Positions 16,660 through 40,861 of a DNA stretch of 64,000 nucleotides are shown here, one piece after another. The DNA is from an uncultured Acidobacteriia bacterium (lineage in GTDB: Bacteria; Acidobacteriota; Terriglobia; Bryobacterales; Bryobacteraceae): positions 186,001-250,000 of the forward strand of contig CAINNJ010000064.1 in the NCBI GenBank assembly GCA_903851195.1, in the 5' to 3' direction. Position 1 is the stretch's first letter. Each line of letters starts with the position of its first letter. The notes below the pieces were generated by a model. The model did no database searches and was not told the origin of the DNA. It was given only the letters and a program-made list of their open reading frames with translations. Position numbers and translations under genes: made by a program.

Positions 16660-16681
16660 CGTTCTGAATAAATTCTTTACA

Positions 16682-17149: not shown

Positions 17150-17158
17150 TAAACAGCT

Positions 17159-17300
17159 ATGGGCAAATTTCCGGACAGCCTGCCGGAATTCAGCACGCGT
17201 TTTCGCGGCGGAGCAGGCCTGGCGGAAGAGCGTGCGCGCGGTCGGCGCGCGCTGGCGTTGTAAATTTCGAGCGGTTCGGGCGGTCGGTGACGGACGTTAA
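17159..17300 (+). pseudogene. Decayed N-terminus of an IS1595-type transposase
   Basis: The ATG frame reads MGKFPDSLPEFSTRF, then stops at 17261. Moving to the next frame after one surplus T in a run of T continues as FAAEQAWRKSVRA and runs to a stop at 17298. Together they match, from memory, the start of IS1595-family transposases, which have FPxTLPEFxxRF followed by xxEExCRxYL before the zinc ribbon. The zinc-ribbon cysteines and the catalytic domain are missing. No terminal repeats were found, so this is a relic and not a movable element. Confidence 0.4.
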
Positions 17301-17552
17301 GACGCGCGTTGCCGGACTGCGGAGGATATGACTGTCAATCCTGAAACCCGCGGAGCAAATGTAGTCCGGCTGCTCCGGCGTTGACCTCAGGAAAAGCGGT
17401 TCGAACCCGGGTTGCAGTACCGGTACCTGAAAGCGTCGTCCCGAACGGGCGGGTTTCCGCCGTGGTCCGGGTCGTGGCGCGGGGCTGTCGTATTCTCTCA
17501 GTCCCCTTACGGTTCAGCAGGTCGGCCGTGAATTTAATCGGGAGCGGGAGAA

Positions 17553-17918
17553 GTGTATACCATCAGCAAACAGTTTTATTTCAGCGCCAGTCACCAGTTA
17601 ATGGGCCTGCCGCCGGAGCATCAGTGCGGACGGCTTCACGGGCATAACTACCTGGTGGAAGTGGTACTGCGCTCCGCGCAGCTGTCCAGGCATTCTTTCG
17701 TGGTCGATTACGGCGACTTATACCCGCTCAAGGAGTATCTTGACAGCCGGTTCGACCACAGGCATCTCAACGACGTCTGCAGTTTCGACACGACTGCCGA
17801 AAACCTTGCCAAACACCTCTTTGATTTCTGTAAAGGGCGCTGGGCCGAGACTGTCGCGGTAAGAGTCAGTGAAACGCCCAGAACCTGGGCAACTTACGAA
17901 GAGGATTCGCAATGGTAG
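17553..17918 (+). CDS. queD: 6-carboxy-5,6,7,8-tetrahydropterin synthase (QueD/PTPS family)
   Basis: 121 residues from a GTG with GGGAG upstream. It converts dihydroneopterin triphosphate to 6-carboxytetrahydropterin (QueD) or a related pterin. The CxxxHGH signature of QueD is present (C25, H29, H31), with the third zinc His in FSASHQL (H14), the DHRHLND segment (about 68-74) and the substrate-binding Glu in VSETP (about 107). Length is typical. The start of the next gene, folE, overlaps its end, so the two steps from GTP are coupled. QueE and QueC, needed to go on to 7-deazaguanine, are absent nearby. This points to a pterin product for the NRPS cluster that follows rather than queuosine (inference). 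Confidence 0.88.
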   Translation: MYTISKQFYFSASHQLMGLPPEHQCGRLHGHNYLVEVVLRSAQLSRHSFVVDYGDLYPLKEYLDSRFDHRHLNDVCSFDTTAENLAKHLFDFCKGRWAETVAVRVSETPRTWATYEEDSQW

Positions 17919-18469
17919 ATTATCAAAAGCTGCTGGAGATCGGAAGGGATCTTCTCATTGCCATCGGAGAGGACCCGGAGCGCGAGGGAATCAAAGAGAC
18001 CCCGCGGCGTTTCGCATCCTACTGGCGGGAGTTCATCGAGCACGAATCCGGCAATATCGAAGTCGACTTCGCGTTAAGCGACACCGGCCAGATGGTCGTC
18101 GTCTCCGGGATCAAGGTATGGTCTCTGTGCGAGCATCACCTGCTGCCCTTCTGGTGCGATATCTCGATCGGCTACATTCCCGGCAAAAGGCTGCTGGGCC
18201 TTTCGAAATTCGCCCGGATAGCCAATCAGTTCGCGCACAGACCGCAGATACAGGAACGCCTGGTGTTCGAAATCGCCGGTGAAATTTCCCGCGCGACGAA
18301 CACCGAAGATGTGATCGTGATGGGCACCGGCGAGCATCTCTGCATGAAGATGCGCGGCGTGAAATCCTCCGGAGCGATGACCACCGTATCGGCACGGGGC
18401 CAGCTGGGAACGAACGCGAACCTTCGGTCTGAATTCATGCAGATCGTCGGCCAGAATATCCGGGCGTAG
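17912..18469 (+). CDS. folE: GTP cyclohydrolase I
   Basis: 185 residues. It opens GTP to dihydroneopterin triphosphate, the first step of folate, pterin and deazapurine pathways. The zinc ligands C73 and H76 in SLCEHHLLPF and C144 in EHLCMKMRG are intact, with the family motif RPQIQERL after GLSKFARI. The N-terminal helix is shorter than in E. coli FolE but normal for other bacteria. It overlaps queD by 7 bases and stands 5 bases before the acyl-CoA dehydrogenase gene, so it belongs to the cluster. Folate synthesis probably has its own copy elsewhere in the genome (inference). Confidence 0.93.
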   Translation: MVDYQKLLEIGRDLLIAIGEDPEREGIKETPRRFASYWREFIEHESGNIEVDFALSDTGQMVVVSGIKVWSLCEHHLLPFWCDISIGYIPGKRLLGLSKFARIANQFAHRPQIQERLVFEIAGEISRATNTEDVIVMGTGEHLCMKMRGVKSSGAMTTVSARGQLGTNANLRSEFMQIVGQNIRA

Positions 18470-18474
18470 GCTTC

Positions 18475-19620
18475 ATGGTCAGCTTCCAGCTCAGCGAAGA
18501 ACAGGAGCAGATGCGCAAGACCGCCCGGGAATTTTCCCGGGCGGAAATCCGTCCTGTAGCCGCTCATTATGACGAAACCGAACAGGTTCCGTGGCCGGTG
18601 CTGGAACGCGCTTCGAAGCTGGGTCTGACCACTTACCGGTATCCGGAAAAGTACGGGGGCGGCGGCATCGAAAGCCTGTTGACCGCCTGTGTAATCACCG
18701 AAGAGCTGAGTCACGGCTGCGCGGGTATCGCCAATACGCTGCTGGGATGCGACACAGTGGCGATCCCCATATTGCTGACGGGAACGGAATCCCAGAAAGA
18801 ACGCTGGCTGCCCCTGTTTTGCGATCCGAACAAGGTGCGCCTGGGAGCTTTCGCGCTTACGGAAGCAGAAGCCGGCTCCGACGTAGCGGCGCTCCGGGCC
18901 ACGGCGAAACGCGACGGGAACTTCTATATTCTGAACGGCCGCAAACAGTATATTTCGTTTGCCGGAATCGCCGATCTCTATCTTGTTTTCGCCAAAGTGG
19001 ACGGGTCGGAGATTACCGCGTTTCTGGTGGAAGCCGGCACTCCCGGTTTGTCCGTGGGAAACAAAGAAAAGAAGATGGGGATGCGGGCCTCACAGCTTTG
19101 CGAGGTGATGCTCGACGATGTCCGGGTGCCCGTTCAAAACCGGCTGGGCCAGGAAGGTCAGGGTTTTTATGTTGCCATGAAAACCTTCGAGTACAACCGG
19201 CCGCTGATTTCCAGCCTTGCTATCGGCGTGGCCAGAGCCGCCTATGAGTACGCCTTAACCTACGCGAAGCAACGGGTCCAGTTCAACAGGCCTATCATTG
19301 CCAACCAGGCGATCAGTTTCCTGCTCGCGGACATGGCGACGAACATCGAGGCCGCGCGCCTTCTGGTGTGGAAAGCCGCGTGGATGATCGACCAGGGTCT
19401 GCCGGCCAACGCCGCCGCCAGCATGGCGAAGGGCTATGCCGCGGATTTGGCCATGCAAGTCACAACCGACGCCGTGCAGATTCTGGGCGGAAATGGTCTG
19501 ATGCGGGACTATCCGGTCGAGAAGTGGATGCGCGACGCCAAAATTCTGCAGATCGTGGAAGGAACCAGTCAGATCCAGCGGATGATTATCTCTCAGCTGC
19601 TGGCCGTGCCGCAAACCTGA
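18475..19620 (+). CDS. Acyl-CoA dehydrogenase family flavoprotein
   Basis: 381 residues, full length. All parts of the FAD fold are present: LSEEQEQMRKTAREF at the start, the FAD region FALTEAEAGSD, the central ITAFLVE beta domain, QVTTDAVQILGGNGL and the catalytic base Glu in VEGTSQIQR. It should abstract a proton alpha to a thioester and make a double bond, with ETF as acceptor. Within assembly-line clusters such enzymes often act on carrier-bound acyl groups or on other C-N or C-C bonds. Lying between the pterin genes and the first NRPS, it could oxidise a reduced pterin or its carrier-bound form (inference). Confidence 0.88.
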   Translation: MVSFQLSEEQEQMRKTAREFSRAEIRPVAAHYDETEQVPWPVLERASKLGLTTYRYPEKYGGGGIESLLTACVITEELSHGCAGIANTLLGCDTVAIPILLTGTESQKERWLPLFCDPNKVRLGAFALTEAEAGSDVAALRATAKRDGNFYILNGRKQYISFAGIADLYLVFAKVDGSEITAFLVEAGTPGLSVGNKEKKMGMRASQLCEVMLDDVRVPVQNRLGQEGQGFYVAMKTFEYNRPLISSLAIGVARAAYEYALTYAKQRVQFNRPIIANQAISFLLADMATNIEAARLLVWKAAWMIDQGLPANAAASMAKGYAADLAMQVTTDAVQILGGNGLMRDYPVEKWMRDAKILQIVEGTSQIQRMIISQLLAVPQT

Positions 19621-19692
19621 TATCACCGGGGCGGCGCACAGCGGAATTGAGTGGTGGAAGCGCAGTGAGATTTTTTTGGGGGAGACGCGGGC

Positions 19693-22600
19693 ATGTATGA
19701 ACGAGAGAGCGTAACCGGCAGGTTGCCTCAACACGGAGGAGCGGGACTGGCCGATCCGGCGGAGCCGCTGTCCCTGCCTTACCATTGCGTTCATCAGGCC
19801 TTCGAAGCGCAGGCGAAAGAATGTCCCGAAGCGCCCGCGCTCACCTTTGGCGACTCCACTCTGACGTACGGTGAACTGAATCTCCGGGCGAATCAGCTGG
19901 CACATTACCTGCGAACGCTGGGAGTCGGCCCGGAAATTCTGGTGGGACTTTGCGTCGAGCGTTCCGTCGACACAATTGTCGGGATGCTGGCGATTCTGAA
20001 AGCGGGCGGAGCGTACGTTCCGCTGGATGTCGCTTATCCTCAGGATCGCTTAGCCTACATGATCCGGGACGCGCGCATCCCGGTTATTATTACGCGCAGC
20101 GAACTTAGACCGGGACTGGCGACGCATCAGCTGAAAGTCGTCTCGCTGGACGCGGACCGGGACAGGATCGGCAGTGAGTCAGGAGAAAACCCCGATTCGG
20201 GCGTGTCCGCGGACAACCTGATGTATGTGATCTACACGTCGGGTTCAACGGGCAAGCCGAAGGGTGTGATGGTCACCCACGGCAACGTGGCCCGTCTTTT
20301 CGAGGCAACCCGGCCGTTTCTTCAGTTCGACGCCGGCGATTCCTGGACGCTCTTTCATTCCTGCTCCTTCGGTTTTTCGGTATGGGAAATCTGGGGCGCT
20401 TTGTATCATGGCGCCAGACTGGTTATTGTTTCCCAGGCGGTCAGCCAGTCCACGGATGATTTTTACGAACTGGTCTGCCGCGAACGGATCACCGTTCTCA
20501 GCCAGACTCCCTCGGCGTTCAGCCTTTTTCTGCTGGCCGATGCGGCTTCAAAGCACGAGTTCGGCCTGAATCTGCGATATATCGTCTTCAGCGGCGAGCG
20601 CCTCGAAAACCAGCGCGTGGAGTCCTGGATCAAGCGGCACGGCGATGAACAGCCACGCCTGGTCAACATGTACGCGATTACCGAAACCGCGGGTGAAATT
20701 ACCTACCAGCGAATCACGCGTAAGGACTTATCGGAGAGCACTCGCAACGTTATCGGCGTGCCGCTTCCGGATGTTCAGATCTATATTCTGGACGAAGATG
20801 GAAAGCAGGTCCCGGCCGGTTCGCCAGGTGAGATGTATGTCGGCAGTTCCTGCGTTGCACGGGGTTATCTGAACCTGCCGGAGCTGACGGCGCAGAAGTT
20901 CCTGCCTAATCCGTTCGCCGACGGAAGGCAGGAAGGGCTTTACAGAACCGGCGACCGCGCGCGCGTGCTGCCCAACGGCGAGATCGAGTTTCTGGGCCGG
21001 GCGGACGATCAGGTGAAAATCCGCGGTTATCGGGTGGAACTGTCTGAGATTCAGGATGTCTTAACCGCCCATCCCGCCATTCAGGAAGCCGTTGTTTCCA
21101 CCGAGCAATCGGAAACAGCCAGCCAGGCCCGGTTGATCGCGTTCATAGTCCCGCACGGCGCGTCGCCCGCAACAGCGGATCTGCAAAGTTATCTGAAAGC
21201 GAATCTGCCCGAGTATATGATCCCGGGCTCGTTCGTGACACTGGACAGGATTCCGCGGTCCCCGAACGGCAAGATCGACAGGCAAAAACTACTGTCGATG
21301 AAAACGCCCGCGGAGACAGCTCCACGCTATAAGGCGCAGACAAGGGAAGAGCAGGCTTTGGCCAGTCTTTGGGCTCTGGGCGCCGCGACGGAAGCGCCGG
21401 TAATTCCCTTTGGCGGCAACCCTTCTCCCGCAAAGGAAATCCGGAACGACGATGCGCAGCCGGGTACGTCCGTGGAACAAACATTGGCTCAGATCTGGAA
21501 AGAAGTCCTGGGCCTGAACAGAATCGGCTTGCAGGATGATTTTCTTGAGCTGGGTGGAAACTCACTCCTGGCCGCGCAGGTCCTGCATCGGACGAACGAT
21601 GTTTTCAGGGTAGATCTTTCCACGCGCCACTTCTTCGATGCGGGCACGATCGGGGGCCTGGCACGTCTGATTACGCAGAAGCAGACGGATCAGCTTGCGC
21701 CGGATGAACTGGCCGGCATGCTTGCGGAGCTGGAGGAATTCTCCGACGAAGAAGCCCGGCAACTTCTTGCGAACCGGGCCGGCGAGGCAAATAGCGCAGG
21801 CACCGGCAGTCTCGCAGCCCTGGAAATTCCGGCAAGCGGGACGCAACACGATCGTTATATGCGCCTTGCGATCGGGAAGGCGAAGGAAGCTGTTCGGGAG
21901 CACCAGACGCCGATCGCGGCTTGTGTTGTGAAAGACGGCGAGGTGGTCGCGTGCGTCCACAATTCCGTCCGGCGCGATACGGATCCGACAGCGCACGCCG
22001 AAGTGCTGGCAATTCGGGAAGCGTGCCGCAAGCTCGAGACGACCGATCTGTCCGGATGCGTGCTCTATTCGACGCTGGAACCGTGTCCGATGTGTTTCAG
22101 CGCCTGCACCTGGGCCAATTTATCGACGGTCGGATACGGCGCGAGAAGAGAAGACGCGGTTCAGATCGGTCTTCCCAAAGCCGGGACCTCCGTTCAGTCA
22201 CTCAAGACTTACCTGCGCAGTTCCGTGGAACTGGTGGCGGATATTTTGCGGGATGAAAATCTGGAAGTCTTCGAACTCTGGAATCAGGCCAGAGGAGCCC
22301 GGACTTCGCAGTACGACCGGATCGCGGAACAGTTCAAACAGGTGAGGAACTCACCGGTTAACAAGCATATTGTCGATCACACGCTTTTCTCGATGATCGG
22401 CGACCTCGATCGGGGGCAATCCGTTCTGGATCTTGCCTGTGGTGAAGGCCACTACTCCCGGAAGCTGAAGCGCCGGGGGGCTGCACTCGTCACCGGCGTC
22501 GATATCTCGTCGCAGATGATCCGGCTTGCGGAAGAACAGGAAAACAGCGATCCGCTCGGCATCACCTATCTCTGCAGCGATGTGCTCGAACTCGGCGTTA

Positions 22601-23040
22601 TCGGCCAGTTCGACGTGGTGGTTGCGCCGTTTCTTTTGAACTACGCCAGGACGAAAGAGCATCTGATCGACATGTGCAAAATCGTCTGTTCCAATCTGAA
22701 GCCAGGCGGCCACTTCATCGTTCTTACCGAGAATTTCAACCAGTCACCGGAAGATTTTGGCGGCTATGAACGGTATGGCTATTCCAAATCCGTCGCTCAC
22801 CCCTCCGGTGAAGGCGCCGTGATTACCTACAGGATGTCCACGGGATCGGAGGAACTCCGGTTCGACGGGCACTACTGGTCGGGCGCGAGTTACAGTGACG
22901 CGTTCGAAACCGCCGGATTCAAGGATATCCGGACACACAATCTGTCGTGCTCACCGGAAGGGATCGAGGAGTACGGGCATCGCTTCTGGAAGACCTTCCT
23001 TGATAATCCGCCCTTCATCGGGGTGGTCTGCCGGAAATAG
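19693..23040 (+). CDS. NRPS protein: adenylation - carrier - zinc deaminase - methyltransferase
   Basis: 1115 residues, ATG after a purine-rich GGGGGAGA. Adenylation domain about 30-535: YTSGSTGKPKG (181-191), NMYAITET (325-332), YRTGD (417-421), PNGKIDR (524-530). There is no condensation domain, so this is a loading module. The substrate-pocket positions read G227, F228, W231, S, V, S, M, G, E, K; G227 replaces the Asp that holds the amino group of an amino acid. Carrier domain about 590-660 with S624 in LGGNSL. A cytidine/guanine-deaminase fold spans about 718-830, with H768-A-E770 and PCPMC (797-801), the complete zinc and proton-shuttle set. A class I SAM methyltransferase spans about 870-1115 (VLDLACGEGHY). 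The line-up suggests an aryl-acid-like starter that is deaminated and methylated on the carrier. Confidence 0.9.
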   Translation: MYERESVTGRLPQHGGAGLADPAEPLSLPYHCVHQAFEAQAKECPEAPALTFGDSTLTYGELNLRANQLAHYLRTLGVGPEILVGLCVERSVDTIVGMLAILKAGGAYVPLDVAYPQDRLAYMIRDARIPVIITRSELRPGLATHQLKVVSLDADRDRIGSESGENPDSGVSADNLMYVIYTSGSTGKPKGVMVTHGNVARLFEATRPFLQFDAGDSWTLFHSCSFGFSVWEIWGALYHGARLVIVSQAVSQSTDDFYELVCRERITVLSQTPSAFSLFLLADAASKHEFGLNLRYIVFSGERLENQRVESWIKRHGDEQPRLVNMYAITETAGEITYQRITRKDLSESTRNVIGVPLPDVQIYILDEDGKQVPAGSPGEMYVGSSCVARGYLNLPELTAQKFLPNPFADGRQEGLYRTGDRARVLPNGEIEFLGRADDQVKIRGYRVELSEIQDVLTAHPAIQEAVVSTEQSETASQARLIAFIVPHGASPATADLQSYLKANLPEYMIPGSFVTLDRIPRSPNGKIDRQKLLSMKTPAETAPRYKAQTREEQALASLWALGAATEAPVIPFGGNPSPAKEIRNDDAQPGTSVEQTLAQIWKEVLGLNRIGLQDDFLELGGNSLLAAQVLHRTNDVFRVDLSTRHFFDAGTIGGLARLITQKQTDQLAPDELAGMLAELEEFSDEEARQLLANRAGEANSAGTGSLAALEIPASGTQHDRYMRLAIGKAKEAVREHQTPIAACVVKDGEVVACVHNSVRRDTDPTAHAEVLAIREACRKLETTDLSGCVLYSTLEPCPMCFSACTWANLSTVGYGARREDAVQIGLPKAGTSVQSLKTYLRSSVELVADILRDENLEVFELWNQARGARTSQYDRIAEQFKQVRNSPVNKHIVDHTLFSMIGDLDRGQSVLDLACGEGHYSRKLKRRGAALVTGVDISSQMIRLAEEQENSDPLGITYLCSDVLELGVIGQFDVVVAPFLLNYARTKEHLIDMCKIVCSNLKPGGHFIVLTENFNQSPEDFGGYERYGYSKSVAHPSGEGAVITYRMSTGSEELRFDGHYWSGASYSDAFETAGFKDIRTHNLSCSPEGIEEYGHRFWKTFLDNPPFIGVVCRK

Positions 23041-23049
23041 GGAAAAGCC

Positions 23050-24660
23050 ATGAATAACGCGAACAGTATCGTCGATGTCGCTATCCTTGGCGGTGGTGTA
23101 GCGGGCTCGACCCTCGCCCTTCATCTCGCGCTGCATCTGCCGGAGGTTACGGTCGCGGTTGTGGAACCGAGTCCGGAGCCACCAAGATTCACTCATAAAG
23201 TGGGAGAATCGAGCCTTGGTCCGCAGGGCGCTTATTTCGCCAAGTGGCTGCAGCTTGAGGATTATCTCAATCGGGATCACATAGAAAAGTTCGGAGCGCG
23301 CTACTTCTTCGGAAATCCGGATGGCCCCTTTTCCGAAAGGCCTGAGATCGGGCCCCGGCATGCGGTTACGGAATTTCCGATCTTCGAATACCAGGTGGAT
23401 CGCGGCAAGCTGGAGAGCGATCTCCGGAAAATGGTCACCGACCGCGGTGTTACCTGGTTGACCGCTCAGGCGACAGGCGTTGAAGCCGGTCAGTCGGAGA
23501 ATTCGCATACCGTTTCCCTGCAGGACCGGGCGAGTGGTGAAACATCGCAATTACAGGCCCGCTGGCTGATCGATGCCACGGGGCGCCGCCGTTTCCTGCA
23601 CCGTCTCCGTCACGGCCGTGTCGCTCCGAACGGCCCCTGCAGCGCCGCCTGGTTCCGCGTTCCTGTGTGGATCGATGTGGACGCTTTTGTCCCGGCGTCC
23701 GACACCGAATGGCACGATCGCGTGCGTCCGCAACACCCGCGGGGAATTTCCTTCGGACGGTTTAACTCCACCAATCACCTTTGTGGAACCGGGTATTGGG
23801 TGTGGCTGATTGCGTTGCCGGAGGGTGTGATGAGCGTGGGGATTGTGGCCAAGGAGGAGCACATCCCGTTTGAAACCTTCAACACGCGCGATCTCGCGCG
23901 GCGCTGGCTGGCGGAGCATGAGCCGCAGGTCGCCGCCGCGATGGAAAACTGCGAAATGATGGATTTCCGCACGATGCGGCGTTACTCGTATCCCGTGCAG
24001 GATTTTATTTCCGCGGATCGGTCAGCTCTGGTGGGCGAGGCTCTTGGGTTTGCCGACCCGTTCTACTCCCCCGGCGGCGACATGATCTCGCTCGCCAATC
24101 TTATGGTGGTCGAGTCAATTCGGCGCGAACGCGCTGGTCAACTCGATGAGCAGGCTTGTCGGGCGCTGACGGAAAGCATGCGGCGCATTCAGGCCCTCTC
24201 CGTGGAATCCATTCAGTCAATTTATCCCTGTCTGGGCTCTTCGCGCGCTGCCGGCGCTCACGTCATTCTGGACTTTTTTGGTCTGGTCACGCCAATGTCG
24301 CTGCTTGTTAACAATTTCAGCGCCGGGATTTACGACTTCCTGGCGAGTGAAGAAGCGCATCTCGTGCTCGGGGAACTGGCGGAGATAAGGCAGGAACTCA
24401 ACCAGCTCATCAAGACCTGGGCCCGGGGCGAGAACTCTCAGCTGCCTCCAGGTTCGCACCTCGATCACACGGAAAAGCTCTACGAACTGATCGAGAGTAT
24501 CTGGAAGGACTCAGAGGGAAGAGATCTGCACTCGCTGGTTAACTTCTTACTTGAGAATTTCAGAAGGGTCGCCCGCTCTTATCGAACGCAGGGACTGGAC
24601 TGGGAATTCTTCGATCCTTCATTGATGCCGGCCGTGAGCCATCTTCAGGAGCACACGTGA
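23050..24660 (+). CDS. Flavin-dependent halogenase-like oxidoreductase
   Basis: 536 residues. An FAD-dependent enzyme of the tryptophan/phenol halogenase superfamily. The N-terminal nucleotide fold is LGGGVAGSTLA; the halogenase-type signature appears as WVWLIALPEG (WxWxI kept, the usual following Pro replaced by Ala); and the second signature FADPFYSPGG fits the F-x-D-P-x-x-S-x-G pattern. VGESSLGPQG matches the conserved GES/GEA loop. It could chlorinate an electron-rich ring, or be one of the many halogenase-like monooxygenases or dehydrogenases, and the altered WxWxIP leaves this open. It starts 9 bases after the first NRPS gene and overlaps the next NRPS gene by 4 bases. Confidence 0.75.
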   Translation: MNNANSIVDVAILGGGVAGSTLALHLALHLPEVTVAVVEPSPEPPRFTHKVGESSLGPQGAYFAKWLQLEDYLNRDHIEKFGARYFFGNPDGPFSERPEIGPRHAVTEFPIFEYQVDRGKLESDLRKMVTDRGVTWLTAQATGVEAGQSENSHTVSLQDRASGETSQLQARWLIDATGRRRFLHRLRHGRVAPNGPCSAAWFRVPVWIDVDAFVPASDTEWHDRVRPQHPRGISFGRFNSTNHLCGTGYWVWLIALPEGVMSVGIVAKEEHIPFETFNTRDLARRWLAEHEPQVAAAMENCEMMDFRTMRRYSYPVQDFISADRSALVGEALGFADPFYSPGGDMISLANLMVVESIRRERAGQLDEQACRALTESMRRIQALSVESIQSIYPCLGSSRAAGAHVILDFFGLVTPMSLLVNNFSAGIYDFLASEEAHLVLGELAEIRQELNQLIKTWARGENSQLPPGSHLDHTEKLYELIESIWKDSEGRDLHSLVNFLLENFRRVARSYRTQGLDWEFFDPSLMPAVSHLQEHT

Positions 24661-31462: not shown

Positions 31463-34400
31463 GCGAAACCGGATCGCTGGGAATCGCGGTTGTGGGATTG
31501 GCTGGGCGTTTCCCGCAGGCCCCCGATATCGATGCGTTTTGGACGCTCCTGAAGGACGGGCGTGAGGCCGTTGTTGAGTTCCAGGACGAGGAACTGCTCG
31601 CGGCCGGCGTGGATCCCGCGTTGCTAAGCAATCCCGAATTTGTAAAGTCCGGGACGGTCGTCGACGATATTGAATACTTCGACGCCGGCTTCTTCAGGAT
31701 GAGCGCGCGGGACGCTGAGATTGCCGACCCGCAGCACCGGTTATTCATGGAATGCGCATGGCAGGCGCTGGAGCACGCCGGTTATCCGCCCGAGAGGACG
31801 GAAGCCCGCGTCGGACTCTATGCCGGAGTGGGGGAAAATACCTACCGGCGGCTGCATCTTGAACCTAATCAGGCGTTAATGTCCTCGGTTGGCGCCTACC
31901 GTATCGCAACACTCAACGTCGCCGATTTTCTGGCGACTTACACCGCGTTTAAACTGAACCTGACTGGTCCGGCAGTTACCGTGCAAACCGCCTGTTCCAC
32001 TTCGCTGGTAGCGGTACACATGGCCTGCCAAAGCCTGCTGAATTTCGAGTGCGACATGGCGTTGGCTGGCGGTGTCTCCGTTTTCCTTCCCCAGCGACAA
32101 GGCTATCTTTACCAGGAAGGCATGATCGCGTCTCCGGACGGCCATTGCCGCGCTTTCGACGCGCAGGCGCAGGGGACCATTCATGGTGGTGGTGCCGGAG
32201 TTGTGCTGCTGAAGCGGCTTGACGAAGCAATTGCGGACGGCGATACGATTCACGCCGTCATTCTTGGGTCCGCGGTTAACAACGACGGCGCGAGTAAGAT
32301 CGGCTTCACGGCTCCCGGCGTCGGCGGGCAAACCGATGTGATTCTGGAAGCCCAGTCCGCTGCCGGTGTTCATCCCGATGAGATCAGCTACATTGAGGCG
32401 CACGGCACGGCGACACCACTTGGCGACCTTATCGAGATGCAGGCGCTCACCGCCGCGTTTCGGGCGCACACGCAGCGCAAGAGCTACTGCGCGATCGGTT
32501 CCGTCAAGACGAATATCGGCCACTCTGACACAGCGGCGGGCATCGCGGGATTAATTAAGACCATCCTCGCGCTTCAGCATCGCCAACTGCCCGCAAGTCT
32601 GCATTTCAGCGCGCCCAATCCTCAGATCGATTTTCCTGACAGCCCGTTTTTCGTGAATCATCGTTTGCGGAATTGGGATGCGCCGGGTGCTCAGCGGCGC
32701 TGCGCGGGTGTGAGCGCATTCGGCATCGGCGGCACGAACGCGCATCTCATAGTGGCGGAAGCGCCGGCCGCCAGGGCTGTTCCACAGCTTGCTCCCGCTA
32801 AGCCGTCATGGCAGCTATTATGCCTGTCGGCGCGAACGGCAACGGCTCTCGAAAAAGCGCGCCGGAATCTGAGCGATTATCTCGCGGATCGCCCCGACAC
32901 CGACCTGAACGATGTCGCGTATACGCTTCACTTCGGAAGACAGGATTTTCGTAACCGGCACGTTCTGGTGTGCCGCGACAGCCGGGAAGCGGCATCGCTG
33001 CTTTCCACTCCGGCTCCGCAGGGGAACATTTCGCGGGCGGCGCCCGAGTCGGCTCCGGGAGTTGTTTTCCTGTTTCCCGGCGGCGGCGCGCAGTATCCCA
33101 ACATGGGCCGGGATCTTTACGAGGCAAACGGTATCGATGGCTTCAGCGTGTACCGGGAACAGGTGGACCGCTGTCTCGCCGTTTTTCAATCGACATTCGG
33201 TATCGACCTGAAGCCGCATCTCTTCCCCGCCCGCGACGGAAACGCGGAACAGACTGCGCAGGCACTGCAAGACGCCGTGATCGTGCTGGAAAAGCCTTCT
33301 CTTGCCTATCCGGCGCTGTTCATAACGGAGTACAGTCTGGCTCAACTCTGGCTGTCCTGGGGAATTGATCCGGTGGCCATGATCGGGCACAGCATGGGCG
33401 AGTACGTGGCGGCCTGTCTTGCCGGAGTCTTTTCGCCGGAAGATGCTCTGTCGATTGTTACCTGGCGCGGCCAGCTCTATGAAACGCTGCCGCCGGGAGC
33501 CATGCTAAGCGTCGCGCTCTCACCCGCCGACTTACAGTCCCGCCTGAGTGGTGACTTAGCAATAGCCGCGATTAATAAGCAGAATCTTTGCACGGTCTCC
33601 GGGCCGGCTGACGCCATCGCGAGGCTGGCCGAAGGCCTGACCGCGGAGGGAGTTCCTTCCAACCGGGTCCGAATCGCCTTCGCCGGCCATTCACCGATGC
33701 AGGAACCCATTCTGGATGAGTTTCGCAGTCGGCTGCAACGGGTGCGTTTTTCCCCTCCCAAAATACCTTTTATTTCCAATGTCAGCGGCGGCTGGATTCG
33801 CCCCGATGAGGCGGTAAGCCCGGAATACTGGGTAAGGCATTTGCGCCACACGGTGCGCTTTGCCGATGGTGTAAGTGAGTTGCTGCGCGAGTCCTCCCGA
33901 GTGTTTCTTGAGGTTGGGCCGGGTCAGACCTTACGGCCTCTTATCGAAGCGCACCCGGCAAAACAGAAAAGCCATACCGTGCTTTGCTCCATGCGTCATC
34001 CCGCGGACCCGACATCGGACTCGCCCCACCTTCTGCGGACGGCGGGTGAGTTGTGGCGCAGCGGCGTAGCCGTGGACTGGAGGAGCTTGCGTGCACACCG
34101 GTCGGGCCGCCGTATTCCGCTGCCGACTTATCCGTTCGAGCGCGAGAAACACTGGATCGACGCGCCGCGCCAGGACACCCGGCAGACCACGCAATGGCTG
34201 GAGACGACCGTAACGCGCCAGGACGCCCCGGTGCCTCAGGCCCGCATCGAAAGGCGCGATCTCTCGCCTCTGGAACGGGAAATCGCGGCCGTCTGGTCGC
34301 AATGTCTGGGGACCAACGAAATCGATCCTGAAGCGGATTTCTTTGCGCTCGGCGGCGACTCTCTGCTGGCGACACAACTGGCTGCCCGTCTGCGCGACCA

Positions 34401-35310
34401 ACTGAACGTCCCTCTGGATACGCACAGTCTGCTCAATGCGCCCACCGTAGCGCAGTTAGCCGCTTTCATTGCGGCCGAGGGCACACACTCCGGGACGCAG
34501 CCGGCCTTGCCTGAACTGGTGGTGGAACTCCAGGCCGGGAAAGCTGATCGTAAGCCTTTGTTCCTGATGCACCCGGTAGGCGGGCATGTTTATTCTTACC
34601 GTGACCTGGTGCGGCATCTGGATCCCGATCTGCCGGTGTACGGCATTCGGGCGCGCGGAGTAGAAGGCGAGGCGGAACCGCTCGCCAGCGTTGCGGAGAT
34701 GGCGCGCGTCTATACCGCGGCGGTAAGAGCCACGCAGCCAGATGGGCCTTACCTGTTGGGCGGTTCCTCGTTCGGCGGAGTCCTGGCATTCGCCATGGCG
34801 CAGGAACTTCTGGCGGAGCGTAAACAGGTGGCTTTCCTGGCTCTGATCGATACGCCTGGGCCCGGAAACATGCCGGAGCCCTTTGAAGAGATTGCCGACA
34901 TTCTTTTCTACATGCTGAAAGTCGGTCAGGACATGGACGTCGATATCGCGGCGCTGCGGTCGATGGACGAAGCGCGGCAACTGGAGTTCTTTCTGGAGCA
35001 CAGCCGGTGGCGCTTTTCATCGCCGCGGGACCTGAAAACCATGCTGACAATCTTCAAAACCAACGAGCGCGCCATGTGGGACTACGTTCCCGAAACGTAT
35101 CCGGGTAAAGTGCATTTTTATCTGGCCCGTGAACGCGATGCGTTTACCCCGCAGACTCCCGCTCACGGGTGGATCGGACTGGCCGGCCAGGGCATAGAAA
35201 TTCATACGGTTCCGGGAAATCACATCAGCATGACCGAAATGCCTCACGTCAGGCATCTGGCGGCATCCCTGGGACAAAACCTGAAGGAATCTGTAAACCG
35301 TTTTAACTAA
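31459..35310 (+). CDS. Type I polyketide synthase KS-AT-ACP-TE
   Basis: 1283 residues. Ketosynthase 7-430 with TACSTS (C179), EAHGT (H315) and KTNIGH (H355). Acyltransferase about 530-860 with GHSMGE (S645); the specificity motif reads FAGHS where malonyl enzymes usually have HAFHS, so the unit is probably malonate but uncertain. No ketoreductase, dehydratase or enoylreductase is present, so the keto group added to the peptide stays. Carrier domain about 945-1020 (LGGDSLLATQ). Type I thioesterase about 1040-1283 with GSSFGG, LIDTPGPG and GNHISM as Ser, Asp and His. It adds one two-carbon unit to the peptide and then releases the product. A beta-keto acid or a cyclised tetramate-like end is possible. 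Confidence 0.92.
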   Translation: MSETGSLGIAVVGLAGRFPQAPDIDAFWTLLKDGREAVVEFQDEELLAAGVDPALLSNPEFVKSGTVVDDIEYFDAGFFRMSARDAEIADPQHRLFMECAWQALEHAGYPPERTEARVGLYAGVGENTYRRLHLEPNQALMSSVGAYRIATLNVADFLATYTAFKLNLTGPAVTVQTACSTSLVAVHMACQSLLNFECDMALAGGVSVFLPQRQGYLYQEGMIASPDGHCRAFDAQAQGTIHGGGAGVVLLKRLDEAIADGDTIHAVILGSAVNNDGASKIGFTAPGVGGQTDVILEAQSAAGVHPDEISYIEAHGTATPLGDLIEMQALTAAFRAHTQRKSYCAIGSVKTNIGHSDTAAGIAGLIKTILALQHRQLPASLHFSAPNPQIDFPDSPFFVNHRLRNWDAPGAQRRCAGVSAFGIGGTNAHLIVAEAPAARAVPQLAPAKPSWQLLCLSARTATALEKARRNLSDYLADRPDTDLNDVAYTLHFGRQDFRNRHVLVCRDSREAASLLSTPAPQGNISRAAPESAPGVVFLFPGGGAQYPNMGRDLYEANGIDGFSVYREQVDRCLAVFQSTFGIDLKPHLFPARDGNAEQTAQALQDAVIVLEKPSLAYPALFITEYSLAQLWLSWGIDPVAMIGHSMGEYVAACLAGVFSPEDALSIVTWRGQLYETLPPGAMLSVALSPADLQSRLSGDLAIAAINKQNLCTVSGPADAIARLAEGLTAEGVPSNRVRIAFAGHSPMQEPILDEFRSRLQRVRFSPPKIPFISNVSGGWIRPDEAVSPEYWVRHLRHTVRFADGVSELLRESSRVFLEVGPGQTLRPLIEAHPAKQKSHTVLCSMRHPADPTSDSPHLLRTAGELWRSGVAVDWRSLRAHRSGRRIPLPTYPFEREKHWIDAPRQDTRQTTQWLETTVTRQDAPVPQARIERRDLSPLEREIAAVWSQCLGTNEIDPEADFFALGGDSLLATQLAARLRDQLNVPLDTHSLLNAPTVAQLAAFIAAEGTHSGTQPALPELVVELQAGKADRKPLFLMHPVGGHVYSYRDLVRHLDPDLPVYGIRARGVEGEAEPLASVAEMARVYTAAVRATQPDGPYLLGGSSFGGVLAFAMAQELLAERKQVAFLALIDTPGPGNMPEPFEEIADILFYMLKVGQDMDVDIAALRSMDEARQLEFFLEHSRWRFSSPRDLKTMLTIFKTNERAMWDYVPETYPGKVHFYLARERDAFTPQTPAHGWIGLAGQGIEIHTVPGNHISMTEMPHVRHLAASLGQNLKESVNRFN

Positions 35311-35332
35311 CATCTGAAGGACGAAGCAAACT

Positions 35333-37129
35333 ATGAGAATACTGGGTCTTAATTCGGCGTTTCACGAAAATTCAGCCGCGCTGATCGTCGATGGCCAGGT
35401 TATCTGCGCTGTAGAAGAGGAACGCTTTAATCGGATTAAACATGGCAGTTCGGCGCGTGTCGATAATCCGCATGAACTGCCCGCTCAGTCGATCCGTTAC
35501 TGCCTGGAGCAGGGCAAACTGCAGGCTTCCGATCTGGATGCCGTCTGCTTTGGTTTCGACCCGGAGTTGCGGCTGCGGGAATGGCGCCCCGATCCCTATG
35601 CGCTGGCCGACGACTGGGGACACCCCGAAGGCGAACAGACTTTCTACAACAACCTGCTGAAGATTCCGGGTACATTGTCGGAACTGCTGGGAACGGATCT
35701 GTCGTCGCGTTTCCGCTGGGTTCCGCACCACATGGCTCACGCGGCCTCCGCCTTCTATCCTTCGAACTTCGACAAAGCCGCCATTCTGGTTGTCGACGGA
35801 ATCGGCGAGGACGCCACGGCGCTGCTGGCCTTCGGCGATGGCGCGCGCATTGAATCGCTGCAGCATATCCCGATGCCGAACTCGCTCGGCTTCCTTTGGG
35901 AAAAATTCAGTAAGTTTCTGGGCTTCTCCGAATATGATGCAAGCCAGGTGATGGGGCTGGCCGGCTACGGCAATCCCGACATTTACCGGGAACACTTCTC
36001 CCGGTTCCTGCAGTACAACGCGGATGGGACGTTTCACGTGAATAACGACGTGCTGCAGTTCCGCCAGCCGAACTGCGACAGCCTGGTAAAACTGTTTGGC
36101 GCGCTCGACGGGCATACGGCTCCCTGCCGCGGTCAGAAAGGGCGCGATATCGCCGCCACCCTGCAGGCTGTCACAAATGAAATTATCCTGGCGTTGGCCG
36201 CGCATCTCTACGCGCAGCGGCCATGCGATTCCCTTTGCCTGGCGGGCGGCGTCGCCCTCAACTGCCAGACGAACTGGATTGTCAAGGAACAGGGGCCTTT
36301 TCAGAACGTCTATATTCCTTCCGCTCCGCACGACGCCGGCACGGCAATCGGCGCGGCTCTCTGCTTCCATTACAACCAGACAGAGCGCGCCGCAGCGGGC
36401 CTCGCGCCGGCATCGCGCGCTACGAGTGTTATGCCGCATCCTTACACCGGTCCTTCTTTTATGGACGAGGAAATTGAGGAGATTCTCGGGGCGCAACCGC
36501 TGCCCGTCAGGAAGTCTTCCGACGTCGCGAAAGAGGTGGCGGAACTGATTTCAGCCGGGAATATCGTGGCGTGGTTCCAGGGCGGCATGGAGTTGGGGCC
36601 GCGCGCTTTAGGGAATCGTTCTCTGCTGGGCGATCCCCGGGACAGGAATGTGCGCGAGGTGATGAACCGCAAGGTGAAACATCGTGAGTTATTCCGTCCG
36701 TTTGCGCCGAGTGTTCTCGAAGAGGTTGCCGATGAGTGGTTCGAGATCGGCAAGCCCTCTGAATCGGCGCGCTACATGCTTTTTGCCTGCCCGGTACCCG
36801 AAGACAAGCGGGAACGAATTCCCGCGGTGATTCACGTCGACGATACGGCCCGGGTGCAGACGGTGTCGAAAGACCTGAACCCGAAGTTCCATGAACTGAT
36901 TTCGCGCTTTTACGAAATCACCGGCGTGCCCATGCTGCTGAATACATCGTTCAACGACAGTGAACCGATTGTGTGCACGCCACAGGACGCGCTCAATACA
37001 TTCAATAAGACCCGCATCGATGTCCTGGTTCTGGGGAACTACATGGTTCGCCGGAATCCCGCCGAGCATCAGAGCGCCGATGTCGCGGAGTCCTCCGAGC
37101 AACCCGAAGAAATGCTGACGGCTATCTAG
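35333..37129 (+). CDS. O-carbamoyltransferase (NodU/CmcH/TobZ family)
   Basis: 598 residues. Both halves of the family are present: an N-terminal Kae1-like domain (LGLNSAFHENSAALIVDG, VPHHMAHAASAFYPSNF, LVVDGIGED, LCLAGGVALNCQTN) that makes carbamoyl-adenylate from carbamoyl phosphate and ATP, and a C-terminal YrdC-like domain (WFQGGMELGPRALGNRSLLGDPR) that moves the carbamoyl group to a hydroxyl. The metal-binding histidines HHMAH are intact. It starts 22 bases after the PKS gene and is followed after 13 bases by a methyltransferase gene. It should add a carbamate to a hydroxyl of the cluster product. No hydroxylase is obvious unless the flavoprotein at 23050-24660 serves. Confidence 0.92.
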   Translation: MRILGLNSAFHENSAALIVDGQVICAVEEERFNRIKHGSSARVDNPHELPAQSIRYCLEQGKLQASDLDAVCFGFDPELRLREWRPDPYALADDWGHPEGEQTFYNNLLKIPGTLSELLGTDLSSRFRWVPHHMAHAASAFYPSNFDKAAILVVDGIGEDATALLAFGDGARIESLQHIPMPNSLGFLWEKFSKFLGFSEYDASQVMGLAGYGNPDIYREHFSRFLQYNADGTFHVNNDVLQFRQPNCDSLVKLFGALDGHTAPCRGQKGRDIAATLQAVTNEIILALAAHLYAQRPCDSLCLAGGVALNCQTNWIVKEQGPFQNVYIPSAPHDAGTAIGAALCFHYNQTERAAAGLAPASRATSVMPHPYTGPSFMDEEIEEILGAQPLPVRKSSDVAKEVAELISAGNIVAWFQGGMELGPRALGNRSLLGDPRDRNVREVMNRKVKHRELFRPFAPSVLEEVADEWFEIGKPSESARYMLFACPVPEDKRERIPAVIHVDDTARVQTVSKDLNPKFHELISRFYEITGVPMLLNTSFNDSEPIVCTPQDALNTFNKTRIDVLVLGNYMVRRNPAEHQSADVAESSEQPEEMLTAI

Positions 37130-37130
37130 T

Positions 37131-37136
37131 CAGGAG
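37131..37136 (+). promoter_or_regulatory. Ribosome binding site that decides the methyltransferase start
   Basis: CAGGAG directly abuts an in-frame ATG at 37137 but stands 6 bases before a second ATG at 37143. The second spacing is normal and the first is impossible for efficient initiation, so I place the start at 37143. Confidence 0.65.
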
Positions 37137-37142
37137 ATGAAG

Positions 37143-37997
37143 ATGAACGCTATCCAAACCACGCTGCAGGCGGCCATTCAGAATAAACGCCTGAGCGTTA
37201 TCAATCAGCGCCCCATCCTCACGGATGCCCTGGACTACCGGGCCATCGACCAGGTGTTTCCGCTGTTCGCCGAACAACAGTTCTTTCTGGACGAACTGCA
37301 GCGCGATAAGATGCAGGGCGCCGAAGTGCTGGAGATCGGCCTCGGGTCCGGAGTTTTGTCTGTCGGGGCCGCGCTGGCGGGAGCAAAGCGCGTCACGGCT
37401 CTCGAGATCAACCCTCGCGCGAAAAACTACGCCGGTTTCAATATCGTGATGAACGGCGTGGAAGACCGGGTCAGTATTATCGACGGTCAGGCGCAGGTCT
37501 GGCAACCCGTTCAGGGACGCCGGTTCGATTACATCATGTCCAATCCTCCTTTCGAGCCCACGCCGGAGAAGACGGACTACTTTTACCACTCCGCCGCGGG
37601 CCCCTACGGGCTGGACTTCCTGGAGAGGATTTTTGCCGGCCTCGACAATCATCTTGCCGAGGGTGGCCACGCCCAGATCGTCACGGCGGCGCCCGGGAAC
37701 AAGCAGGAACCGGACCTGCTGTTAGACATGATCCGTCGGCAGTTGAGCGGCACGGCGACAGTTCTGCTCAATCCCGACCTGATGACCTTCGATGAGATCA
37801 TGGATCGTCTGGCCGATAAGGAAATGGGTCCCGCCGAAGAAGTGGACGCCCTTCGTCGCAGGGCTAAGGCCGATGGCGTGACTCATTTTCATCTGTGCGT
37901 GATTCACTATGAGAAGGGCCCGAAGCGTTTGCAGGTGGAGTCTTCAAAGAAGGTTTATCCGAACTATTGGGATATTCCGGTTCCGGAGTACGTTTAG
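37143..37997 (+). CDS. SAM-dependent methyltransferase with NPPF motif
   Basis: 284 residues. SAM-binding motif EVLEIGLGSGVLSVGAALAG, acidic loop ALEINPRA, then the catalytic SNPPFEPTP. The N-P-P-Y/F/W motif marks methyltransferases acting on planar nitrogens, such as amide or nucleobase nitrogen (HemK/PrmC, N6-adenine and RsmC-like families). The last 40 residues (HFHLCVIHYEKGPKRLQVESSKK) do not match a housekeeping enzyme I recognise. As the last tailoring gene of the cluster it may N-methylate the ring or an amide of the product (inference). Confidence 0.82.
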   Translation: MNAIQTTLQAAIQNKRLSVINQRPILTDALDYRAIDQVFPLFAEQQFFLDELQRDKMQGAEVLEIGLGSGVLSVGAALAGAKRVTALEINPRAKNYAGFNIVMNGVEDRVSIIDGQAQVWQPVQGRRFDYIMSNPPFEPTPEKTDYFYHSAAGPYGLDFLERIFAGLDNHLAEGGHAQIVTAAPGNKQEPDLLLDMIRRQLSGTATVLLNPDLMTFDEIMDRLADKEMGPAEEVDALRRRAKADGVTHFHLCVIHYEKGPKRLQVESSKKVYPNYWDIPVPEYV

Positions 37998-38000
37998 AAG

Positions 38001-38106
38001 CGCACAGGCCGCTTTCGGCGGCACCAGGGGAATGAGGAACTCCGCGGTTTTGGGCGCCGGAAGCGAGTCCGTTGTGCGCGAGTTCCTCAAAAGACGCACA
38101 GGCCGC
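38001..38106 (+). repeat. Small element with 12-base direct repeats and internal hairpin
   Basis: CGCACAGGCCGC occurs at 38001-38012 and again at 38095-38106. Between them lies a 9-base inverted repeat (38034-38042 with 38080-38088) with a loop of 37 bases. It fills the gap between the methyltransferase and the ATPase gene. It may be a terminator or attenuator that separates the ATPase, or a trace of a small inserted element. Confidence 0.4.
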
Positions 38107-38151
38107 CACGGAGCGGCGATTCCCGTAAACGGCGGATGAAAGAGGAAACCA

Positions 38152-40449
38152 TTGTCAATCCTGAGTGCTTTGTCCAAACTTGCCGGCAGCGCGGCGTCGC
38201 TGAGTACCGCGCTTTACGGAGAGATCAGCCGCTCCGATACAACGAAGCAACTGAAAGAGAAGACGATCGCGCTGCGGGGCCGGATCGAACACGATGTCTC
38301 GCCTCTTCTGAAGGACGCGAAAGTCCTGCTGATCAAGGACGCGCACTACTGTCTGGATCAGCTGGAGCACACGTTAACCACCCTTCCGGATCAGGCGCCG
38401 CAGTTGCCCCGAAAACTGACCGATTCCGTGGCGGTCTGGGAACAACAGTGCCAGGTGCTGATCAAAACCAGGGTCGATCCGCTGTTTGGCGGCAAGAGAG
38501 AGTCCCTCATGCAGGAACTCCAGTCCGGGGAGCATGAGGAACTGACCTTTACGCCGGAGGAGCGCCAGTTAAACCGCAATCTCACGCTGGCGGGAATCGT
38601 CACGGGCGCCTCCGTCGTGACTGCTCCGATCAGCGCCGTCTTGTCTTTTGCGGTGTGCGTACCCATAGCGATGTACCTGATCCACTACACGGCTCAGGCT
38701 GCGTACCGGTCTTTAAAAGAAGAACGCAAACTCTCGATTCCGGTGTTGATGACCGCGAACCAGCTGATGCTTTGGTTTGGCGGATATTTCACGCTGGGCG
38801 GCATCATCCTGATTTTCTCTTTCGCGGGACAAAAGCTCGGCTACATTACGTACAACCACTCGCGCAAGCAGCTTAGCGACGTCTTCGGCAAGCTTCCGCC
38901 GCAGGCTCTGGTTTTGCGCGACGGAGTCGAACAGCTGATTCCGTTCGGTGACCTGATGATTGGCGACGTGCTGGTAGCGAACGCCGGCCAGACAATTCCC
39001 GTCGACGGCGTGATTGTCGATGGCTACGCCTCCATTGACCAGCATCGGCTGACCGGCGAAGCGCAACCGGCTGAGAAGGGAATCGGCGATTCGGTGTTGG
39101 CTTCCACGATGGTGCTCTCCGGGCGGGCACACGTGCGCGTCGAGAAGTCGGGCAACGGAACGCTGGCGGCCAGGATCGGAGAGATGCTCCAGGAGACGGC
39201 CAGCTATGAAATGGCGCTCACCACGCGGGCCCGCCAGATGGCCGACCAGTCCGTGGCGCCGACCCTGGCAATGGCGGCGCTGGCCGGAGTCGTTGTTGGC
39301 CTACCCGGTGCGATTGCGATTACCAGCACGATTTTCGGTCTGAATCTGATGTTCTGTGGCCCGCTGGCGCTGAGAAATTACCTTTCGGTGGCGGTGAAAA
39401 AAGGCATTCTGATCAAAGACGGCCGGTCGCTCGATCTGCTGAAGGAAATCGACACCGTCGTTTTCGACAAAACAGGCACACTGACGCTGGAGCAGCCACA
39501 CGTGGCGGCAGTTTACAGCTTCAGCGAAGTAAGTTCACCGGAGATTTTGCGCTACGCTTCCGCCGTCGAACAGCATCAGAGTCATCCGATAGCGCGGGCG
39601 ATCCTCACCCATGCCCGGGAACAGAACGTCGCGGTGCCGGAGATCGATGAGGCCCATCTTGAAATGGGCTATGGCCTGCGGGCAGAGATCGAATCCCGTC
39701 TGATTCACGTCGGCAGCGAGCGTTACATGACTCTGGAGAAAATTGCGCTGCCGCCCTACGCGGAGTATTTACAGAGCGCCTGCCACGAACAGGGAGATTC
39801 GCTCGTGCTCGTGGCCGTGGACGGTCAACTGGCCGGCGCCATTGCACTGAAGCCGACAATTCGGCCTGAAGCGAAAGCGGTGATCGACGAACTGCGGCGC
39901 CGCAAACTGGAGGTGTGTATCATCTCCGGCGATCACGAAGGTCCGACGAGCGTGCTGGCGAAGACGCTTGGGATTGATCGTTATTTCGCCAACACGCTGC
40001 CGGAAGATAAAGCAAGGCTGGTGGAGAAACTGCAGCAGGATGGCCGCTCGGTCTGTTTCGTGGGCGATGGCATTAACGATTCCATCGCTCTGAAAAAGGC
40101 CAACGTATCGGTCTCACTGCACGGCGCCACCACGGTGGCCATCGACACCGCCCAGATTGTTCTGCTGGATACGACACTGGAACAACTGCCGACGATTTTC
40201 CGGCTGGCCGATGAAATCGCCGGCAATCTGCGGGCGGCGCAGGCACTCGCGGTTGTGCCCGCCCTCGGTATCTGGACCGGCGTTTTTGTTTTCCACCTCG
40301 GCATCCTGGGAGCCGCTCTGATATTCGAGAGCAGCCTGTGGCTGGGTATTGCCAACGCCTTCCGGCCGCTGGTGAGATACAAAGAAGAGTCCGGGGAAAC
40401 CGCGCAGCCGCAACTCAGTCTGGATCAGCAGGCTCAATTGCCGGTCTGA
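38152..40449 (+). CDS. P1B-like P-type ATPase lacking the CPC metal motif
   Basis: 765 residues from TTG, chosen because AGAGGA stands 5 bases upstream. The ATPase core is intact: DQHRLTGEAQP (actuator), DKTGTLT, the HP motif in HQSHPIAR that is typical of heavy-metal pumps, and GDGINDSIALKKANVSVSL. The membrane helix before the phosphorylation site, where P1B pumps have CPC followed seven residues later by TP, reads FGLNLMFCGP; aligned on the shared Pro, CPC becomes FGL. No metal-binding HMA domain is present; instead residues 1-150 are helical and unlike known domains. The cargo is therefore unlikely to be a usual soft metal. Its place at the end of the cluster suggests self-protection or export, which is inference. 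Confidence 0.82.
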   Translation: MSILSALSKLAGSAASLSTALYGEISRSDTTKQLKEKTIALRGRIEHDVSPLLKDAKVLLIKDAHYCLDQLEHTLTTLPDQAPQLPRKLTDSVAVWEQQCQVLIKTRVDPLFGGKRESLMQELQSGEHEELTFTPEERQLNRNLTLAGIVTGASVVTAPISAVLSFAVCVPIAMYLIHYTAQAAYRSLKEERKLSIPVLMTANQLMLWFGGYFTLGGIILIFSFAGQKLGYITYNHSRKQLSDVFGKLPPQALVLRDGVEQLIPFGDLMIGDVLVANAGQTIPVDGVIVDGYASIDQHRLTGEAQPAEKGIGDSVLASTMVLSGRAHVRVEKSGNGTLAARIGEMLQETASYEMALTTRARQMADQSVAPTLAMAALAGVVVGLPGAIAITSTIFGLNLMFCGPLALRNYLSVAVKKGILIKDGRSLDLLKEIDTVVFDKTGTLTLEQPHVAAVYSFSEVSSPEILRYASAVEQHQSHPIARAILTHAREQNVAVPEIDEAHLEMGYGLRAEIESRLIHVGSERYMTLEKIALPPYAEYLQSACHEQGDSLVLVAVDGQLAGAIALKPTIRPEAKAVIDELRRRKLEVCIISGDHEGPTSVLAKTLGIDRYFANTLPEDKARLVEKLQQDGRSVCFVGDGINDSIALKKANVSVSLHGATTVAIDTAQIVLLDTTLEQLPTIFRLADEIAGNLRAAQALAVVPALGIWTGVFVFHLGILGAALIFESSLWLGIANAFRPLVRYKEESGETAQPQLSLDQQAQLPV

Positions 40450-40451
40450 GC

Positions 40452-40763: not shown

Positions 40764-40861
40764 GTGGAAACATTAAGCCGAATTCCGCACGAGAACAAGC
40801 CTTAATGCGCAATGACATGAGCTTTTCAGAACAATTGGGTAATTTCGCTTATTGAACCCGC

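Follow-up and report, generated by a model that had tools for sequence, protein, structure and literature searches.

A gene cluster for a candidate pterin-primed NRPS-PKS assembly line in an uncultured Acidobacteriia bacterium

Introduction

The closest described bacterial case that we found to the gene cluster reported here is the pepteridine pathway of Photorhabdus luminescens. Our cluster is a run of 11 genes within a 64,000-nucleotide stretch of contig CAINNJ010000064.1 (positions 186,001 to 250,000; hereafter the window) from an uncultured Acidobacteriia bacterium, and it joins two pterin genes to a hybrid nonribosomal peptide synthetase (NRPS) and polyketide synthase (PKS) line whose starter is probably 6-carboxytetrahydropterin (CPH4). 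The pepteridine pathway likewise places a GTP cyclohydrolase I and a PTPS homologue in an NRPS-like cluster, and gene deletions there showed neither kind of machinery to be dispensable for the product (PMC5384830). It is unlike our cluster in its chemistry: the pterin is proposed to be a free acceptor that is acylated by a fusion of pyruvate dehydrogenase E2 with T and C domains, and the sections of that report on which we draw describe no pterin-loading adenylation (A) domain, deaminase or ring methylase (PMC5384830). Neither a pepteridine-type pyruvate dehydrogenase E1 nor an E2-T-C fusion is found in the 11 cluster genes scanned.

The closest products are fungal lumazine peptides. In the terrelumamides a methyllumazine-6-carboxylic acid is joined to an amino acid, which is the product type proposed here (PMC4377984); unlike the proposed product, the penilumamides and terrelumamides come from fungi and bear an anthranilate ester (PMC4377984, PMC9861175). 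A 2023 paper stated that the genes for penilumamide production had yet to be characterised as a cluster (PMC9861175).

It is established for the enzyme families concerned that FolE converts GTP to dihydroneopterin triphosphate and that QueD turns the latter into CPH4. QueE and QueC would take CPH4 onward to preQ0. In the prolyl-PCP dehydrogenase starters (RedW, PigA, PltE) an A domain, a carrier and an enzyme of the acyl-CoA dehydrogenase (ACAD) family aromatise carrier-bound proline. These systems differ from ours in that their substrate is proline, and the ACAD of our cluster falls far below the RedW and PigA cut-offs and lies nearer to ordinary acyl-CoA dehydrogenases. The route to CPH4 by FolE and then QueD is shared by 7-deazapurine loci, among which many islands omit these two genes; such loci use QueE and QueC (PMC11888242), both absent from our cluster. 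A first-pass annotation of the window knew of no described bacterial assembly line with this logic, and we found none in the open-licence literature searched. That literature yielded nothing that joins CPH4 with an A domain or carboxypterin with a peptide synthetase, and no description of guanosine-deaminase-type and ToxA-type domains acting in cis on a carrier-bound ring.

Results

The cluster occupies positions 17553 to 40449 of the plus strand and extends from QueD to a P-type ATPase. At its head a queD-like gene for 6-carboxytetrahydropterin synthase (17553-17918; PF01242, E 2e-31) and a folE gene for GTP cyclohydrolase I (17912-18469; PF01227, E 7.4e-53) overlap by 7 bases, and behind them come nine further genes at spacings of -4 to 154 bases (in run order the gaps are -7, 5, 72, 9, -4, -4, -4, 22, 7 and 154 bases). 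Domain scans recognised neither QueE nor QueC among the cluster genes; the QueC of this genome lies outside the cluster, on contig C49. The first-pass annotation had described this single-strand run, the overlapping pterin genes at its head, the missing QueE and QueC, and a first NRPS that has no condensation (C) domain, a non-amino-acid pocket, a zinc deaminase and a methyltransferase, and our domain scans and pocket analysis recovered each of these features. An ACAD between FolE and the NRPS, a halogenase-like flavoenzyme, and a carbamoyltransferase adjoining the NPPF methyltransferase are additional to that inventory.

Both pterin genes appear to be dedicated copies. The best PDB match of the cluster QueD is the 6-carboxytetrahydropterin synthase 4ntm (E 1.7e-15), which we take to be E. 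coli QueD, and the alignment keeps CGRLHGH, DHxxLND and the ET pair, that is, the Cys, His and Glu residues together with the zinc motif, to which we assign roles by assumption. The protein is 62.6-64.3% identical to genes annotated next to queC in two Paracoccus records. The cluster FolE matches the GTP cyclohydrolase I 1wm9 in PDB (E 6.1e-38) and shares 35% identity with a FolE copy on contig C30. Genome-wide there are four PTPS matches, namely the cluster copy, a pair on C30 and one on contig C4 whose score exceeds the NCBIfam cut-off for QueD. Because of the C30 and C4 copies, the cluster QueD and FolE are extra to the cell's own set, and the presence of a dedicated pair in a packed run, despite another QueD and a PTPS-PTPS-FolE set in the genome, supports the pathway proposed below. 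The second pterin set on C30 (L046:9233-10678) consists of two adjacent PTPS genes and then FolE; the other neighbours scanned there encode an FAD oxidase, an enolase-superfamily protein and an aldose epimerase.

The starter NRPS (19693-23040, plus strand) comprises, according to Pfam, an A domain (residues ~37-530) with AMP-binding_C, a peptidyl carrier protein domain (PCP; 596-660), a zinc deaminase (~718-860) and a methyltransferase (~906-1115), with no C domain. Its adenylation pocket reads GFWSVSMGE and is without Asp at the position that we take, from its placement by motif, to be residue 235 of PheA. In an alignment of 20 A-domain segments (some come from overlapping loci, so that fewer are distinct) this Asp is present in 18, the exceptions being the starter and its homologue in Oceanospirillum sediminis; all nine pocket residues are identical between these two, and their A domains are 57% identical. 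The most similar other pocket among the aligned segments is DFWNIGMVH, presumably a Thr-type code. Ahead of the PCP, residues 535-590 of the starter protein P0001 (21295-21462) resemble by eye the beginning of a carrier domain (TREEQALASLW). This stretch, which has a similar counterpart in the O. sediminis protein, looks like a carrier that was duplicated and then lost.

The homologous cluster of O. sediminis D5 (L054) consists of an ACAD, an A-PCP-deaminase-methyltransferase protein and one C-A-PCP-thioesterase-like protein. Its starter NRPS is 54% identical to ours over residues 33-1115, and its ACAD lies directly upstream of the starter gene, overlapping it by one base. The ACAD of the window (18475-19620, plus strand; PF00441/02770/02771) is 62% identical to this copy; the runner-up ACADs in either genome reach at most 44%. 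It retains an EGTSQIQ motif whose Glu we presume to be catalytic, and an enzyme of the ACAD fold with this residue is encoded beside the A-PCP starter. The conserved core of both clusters is the ACAD plus the starter module A-PCP-deaminase-methyltransferase. In O. sediminis the downstream C-A-PCP protein has the pocket DILQLGFIW, which we take to be a Gly-like code, and ends in a thioesterase-like segment (by eye, from weak matches).

This arrangement bears on what is loaded. If the second residue of O. sediminis is indeed Gly, which has no C-C bond to desaturate, the starter is left as the substrate of the ACAD, and the starter acid should then be saturated next to its carboxyl at loading. 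The ACAD is therefore proposed as a candidate aromatiser of a carrier-bound tetrahydropterin. Since it is conserved with the starter module, the loaded unit would be CPH4 rather than the aromatic pterin-6-carboxylate favoured by the first-pass annotation.

The halogenase-like enzyme, carbamoyltransferase, NPPF methyltransferase and P-type ATPase of our cluster are unmatched in the 39 kb of the O. sediminis contig that were read (bases 1-18000 lie outside). The eight flanking genes scanned there encode LysR regulators, signalling proteins, one chemotaxis protein, one MFS transporter and a protein of 861 residues that matches fn3 weakly at best. QueC is present in the O. sediminis genome.

The fused deaminase retains the HAE and PCPMC zinc motifs, and the top four PDB sequences matching it are guanosine deaminase (7.1e-27 to 1.9e-26). 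Its AlphaFold model has a mean pLDDT of 89. The substrate cannot be read from the sequence or the fold by itself; the relation to guanosine deaminase would fit a pterin because both substrates present a 2-amino-4-oxopyrimidine half-ring. For the fused methyltransferase the first PDB match is 5jdz (8.9e-36; labelled 'Methyl transferase'), which we take to be a toxoflavin methyltransferase from Burkholderia; 8rdl, with the label ToxA, comes next (5.1e-31). The B. thailandensis enzyme N1-methylates 1,6-didemethyltoxoflavin, a 7-azalumazine (PMC8642396). ToxA (8rdl; 5UFM in PMC8642396) thus supplies the nearest solved relatives of the fused domain, with N1-methylation of a lumazine-like ring as the shared feature; unlike the fused domain it is a separate enzyme with a free 7-azapteridine substrate. 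Deamination and N-methylation of a pterin on the carrier, as put forward in the first-pass annotation, are supported at the level of sequence by this combination of guanosine-deaminase-like and ToxA-type domains.

A DNA pattern across the deaminase-methyltransferase junction, run against the genomes of 84,980 species, found six stretches, one of them real (O. sediminis D5); of the other five, L059 holds a deaminase only and four match no cluster protein at E 1e-5. A protein scan of genome contigs for the deaminase-methyltransferase gave no relatives, none of its 16 pattern-matching stretches being confirmed. Whole-genome searches with the starter NRPS returned 101 relatives which, own genome aside, were one-part matches among the matches listed. 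With the deaminase-methyltransferase stretch some match was obtained in 276 of 399 genomes of the class, and with alignment A2 in 7 of 396 genomes of the phylum and, for O. sediminis, in 1 of 341 genomes of its order (O. sediminis itself) and 4 of 321 of its class. Among the matches listed in these whole-genome searches, both domains occur together in none beyond the two known genomes. None of 285 matching plasmid records covers 80% of the deaminase-methyltransferase query, and no homologous cluster is found in 10 stretches around stand-alone matches (L048-L053, L090-L093). One candidate, L040, appeared fusion-like in tblastn and was rejected, as its deaminase frame stops before any methyltransferase. 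A stand-alone deaminase in genome G435 (L091:9842-10273) shares 49% identity with the fused domain; that stretch gave no NRPS match and has an ACAD (34% identical) about 5 kb away.

The later modules are encoded on the same strand by an NRPS with the domains C-A-PCP (24657-28019), a second NRPS with TubC-docking-C-A-PCP (28016-31462) and a PKS with KS-AT-ACP-thioesterase (31459-35310). The pocket of the first, DLFNNALTY, is one that we take to be an Ala-like code. The residue after the starter is accordingly predicted to be Ala-like, followed by a residue that the DAEDIGVVA pocket of the second NRPS leaves unsettled and by one PKS unit, in line with the alanine, second residue and malonate-type unit of the first-pass annotation. 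By eye, the C domain behind the starter module carries HHxxxDA, not HHxxxDG, in both clusters (24657-28019 in the window; L073:4885-10002).

Three tailoring enzymes accompany these modules. The flavin-dependent halogenase-like enzyme (23050-24660, plus strand; PF04820, E 1.6e-15), a halogenase or hydroxylase, is weakly related to ChlB4 (8.1e-13), CmlS (1.8e-10) and PltA (8.2e-10) in PDB; it could supply a hydroxyl for carbamoylation or add a halogen. A halogenase-like match in Gloeothece has no NRPS annotated near it. The NodU-type carbamoyltransferase (35333-37129, plus strand; PF02543/PF16861) and the NPPF methyltransferase (37137-37997, plus strand) are 52% and 38% identical, respectively, to side-by-side genes of Mycetohabitans rhizoxinica. 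On its plasmid pBRH01 (L044:18101-34572) this pair precedes a large NRPS that shows four C-A matches, and the incomplete gene table of the stretch shown annotates no pterin genes. Because the pair recurs without annotated pterin genes, both enzymes likely act on the peptide part, and the carbamoyltransferase is the more probable partner of the NPPF methyltransferase. The methyltransferase gene is indeed the last tailoring gene, as first annotated; its standing as a second ring methylase is lowered by the Mycetohabitans pairing. The NPPF methyltransferase is also rare, since just one of 396 genomes of the phylum matches at E 1e-20, and this is the window's own. A P-type ATPase (38152-40449, plus strand) closes the run.

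The G+C content of the cluster is 59.2%, compared with 63.2% in the left flank and 62.7% in the right flank. The low value persists past the cluster (59.5% at 38152-46000) to about 46 kb, so that the atypical stretch is longer than the cluster. Rfam has no matches within 15000-47000, and promoter and terminator scans gave results at or below chance level.

Discussion

In CPH4, as in proline, the carboxyl is borne by a saturated ring carbon that has a CH2 neighbour, and the remaining half of the molecule is the 2-amino-4-oxopyrimidine found in guanine. Because CPH4 unites a carboxyl, saturated neighbouring carbons and a guanine-like half, we favour it as the starter, and the gene content makes it reasonably probable that the cluster encodes a pterin- or lumazine-primed NRPS-PKS assembly line. 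The first A domain would adenylate the CPH4 carboxyl and load it on the PCP, where the ACAD would oxidise the ring at the bond adjoining the carboxyl, in the way that proline is aromatised by prolyl-carrier dehydrogenases, to give pterin-6-carbonyl-PCP. The fused deaminase would then strip the 2-amino group to leave a lumazine, and the fused methyltransferase would methylate a ring nitrogen, producing an N-methyllumazine-6-carbonyl starter. This would pass to the Ala-like module, to the second residue and to one PKS extension before release by the thioesterase, with the flavoenzyme, carbamoyltransferase and NPPF methyltransferase decorating the peptide part. In O. sediminis the same starter machinery would yield a minimal N-methyllumazine-6-carbonyl-glycine from housekeeping CPH4, for which the predicted formula is C10H9N5O5 and the calculated [M+H]+ 280.0676.

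Several observations weigh against this assignment. The cluster QueD scores 82.8 bits, narrowly below the NCBIfam TIGR03367 QueD cut-off of 89.25. In O. sediminis, neither QueD nor FolE is matched in the 39 kb read, a genome-wide QueD protein search was empty, and the sole find of a PTPS profile search was a tandem PTPS protein of divergent sequence, which carries a motif resembling CxxxHGH. The pterin genes thus accompany the starter gene in one of the two clusters found and not always; a homologous cluster that lacks them and keeps the rest was among the findings that the first-pass annotation had named as refuting its proposal, and O. sediminis is in part such a case. A cluster without queD can, however, use the cell's CPH4, because CPH4 is a queuosine intermediate, and the like is reported for dpd islands, of which about 27% carry precursor genes and many draw on other supply (PMC11888242). 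Among PDB matches of the fused deaminase, deoxycytidine deaminase (1.1e-25) and TadA (1.7e-25) outrank guanine deaminase (1.5e-24, 1.8e-24), and in Foldseek TadA comes second, nearly level with guanosine deaminase at the top. Stand-alone methyltransferases outscore ToxA against the fused methyltransferase (the best rows are 38-44% identical, up to 190 bits, among the matches listed), and a Tyr common to ToxA is kept in most of 23 aligned rows, so that the link to ToxA is one at family level (rows L035 and L036 were excluded from alignment A3 for in-frame stops). The ACAD scores 246.9 for RedW against a cut-off of 650 and 244.1 for PigA against 500 (NCBIfam equivalogs), generic ACAD profiles score above both, and medium-chain acyl-CoA dehydrogenases in PDB match at 5.6e-100 compared with 1e-60 and 4.6e-44 for prolyl-ACP dehydrogenases.

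The empty O. sediminis searches speak for a starter that is another heteroaromatic or amidine-bearing acid, with FolE and QueD only raising pterin supply or having arrived by chance, and adenine and cytosine bases are likewise substrates of deaminases of the same fold. We nevertheless regard this as unlikely: QueD and FolE overlap and lead a packed gene run, among the genes scanned neither cluster revealed a further one for making an unusual acid, and CPH4 suits the A domain, ACAD, deaminase and methyltransferase together. The next queuosine intermediate, 7-carboxy-7-deazaguanine, deaminated and methylated on the carrier, would likewise be a carboxylic acid with the required half-ring, and QueC in both genomes indicates that the route to it is probably present (QueE was not searched for). 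It seems quite improbable as a starter, since the cluster genes include no QueE, unlike QueD and FolE, and the compound is already aromatic, which would leave the ACAD without a job. We give just as little weight to the version of the first-pass annotation in which the A domain takes already-oxidised pterin-6-carboxylate and the ACAD acts elsewhere; an oxidised acid without a basic amine would fit the loss of Asp235 too, but the sole other residue in O. sediminis is Gly-like and the ACAD has no other evident substrate there. Least probable of all is that FolE and QueD provide a tailoring hydroxylase with a reduced pterin cofactor, in the way that FolE and PTPS homologues serve tetrahydrobiopterin in other organisms, since no cluster gene matches a pterin-dependent hydroxylase family, the CGRLHGH motif is of the QueD type and indicates CPH4, and the deaminase and methyltransferase would be left unexplained.

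With CPH4 as the preferred starter, the first-pass proposal stands in part: its pterin genes, non-amino-acid pocket, deaminase and methyltransferase are upheld, whereas the loaded unit and the role of the NPPF methyltransferase are probably different, and folE and queD do not always accompany the starter gene. The comparison with O. sediminis leads us to suggest, with slightly less assurance than for the cluster itself, a new class of bacterial line in which CPH4 would be captured, aromatised, deaminated and N-methylated on the carrier to give lumazine peptides, in at least two lineages including this gammaproteobacterium. The hybrid NRPS-PKS line would have a new starter, with a fair chance that this represents a new starter class. 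If our hypothesis were correct, the carrier-bound ring would be modified in cis by a domain of the guanosine deaminase type and a methyltransferase of the ToxA type, and O. sediminis would offer a three-gene test system. Lumazine peptides would gain a gene-level logic, and a single loading module would join primary pterin and queuosine metabolism to NRPS chemistry.

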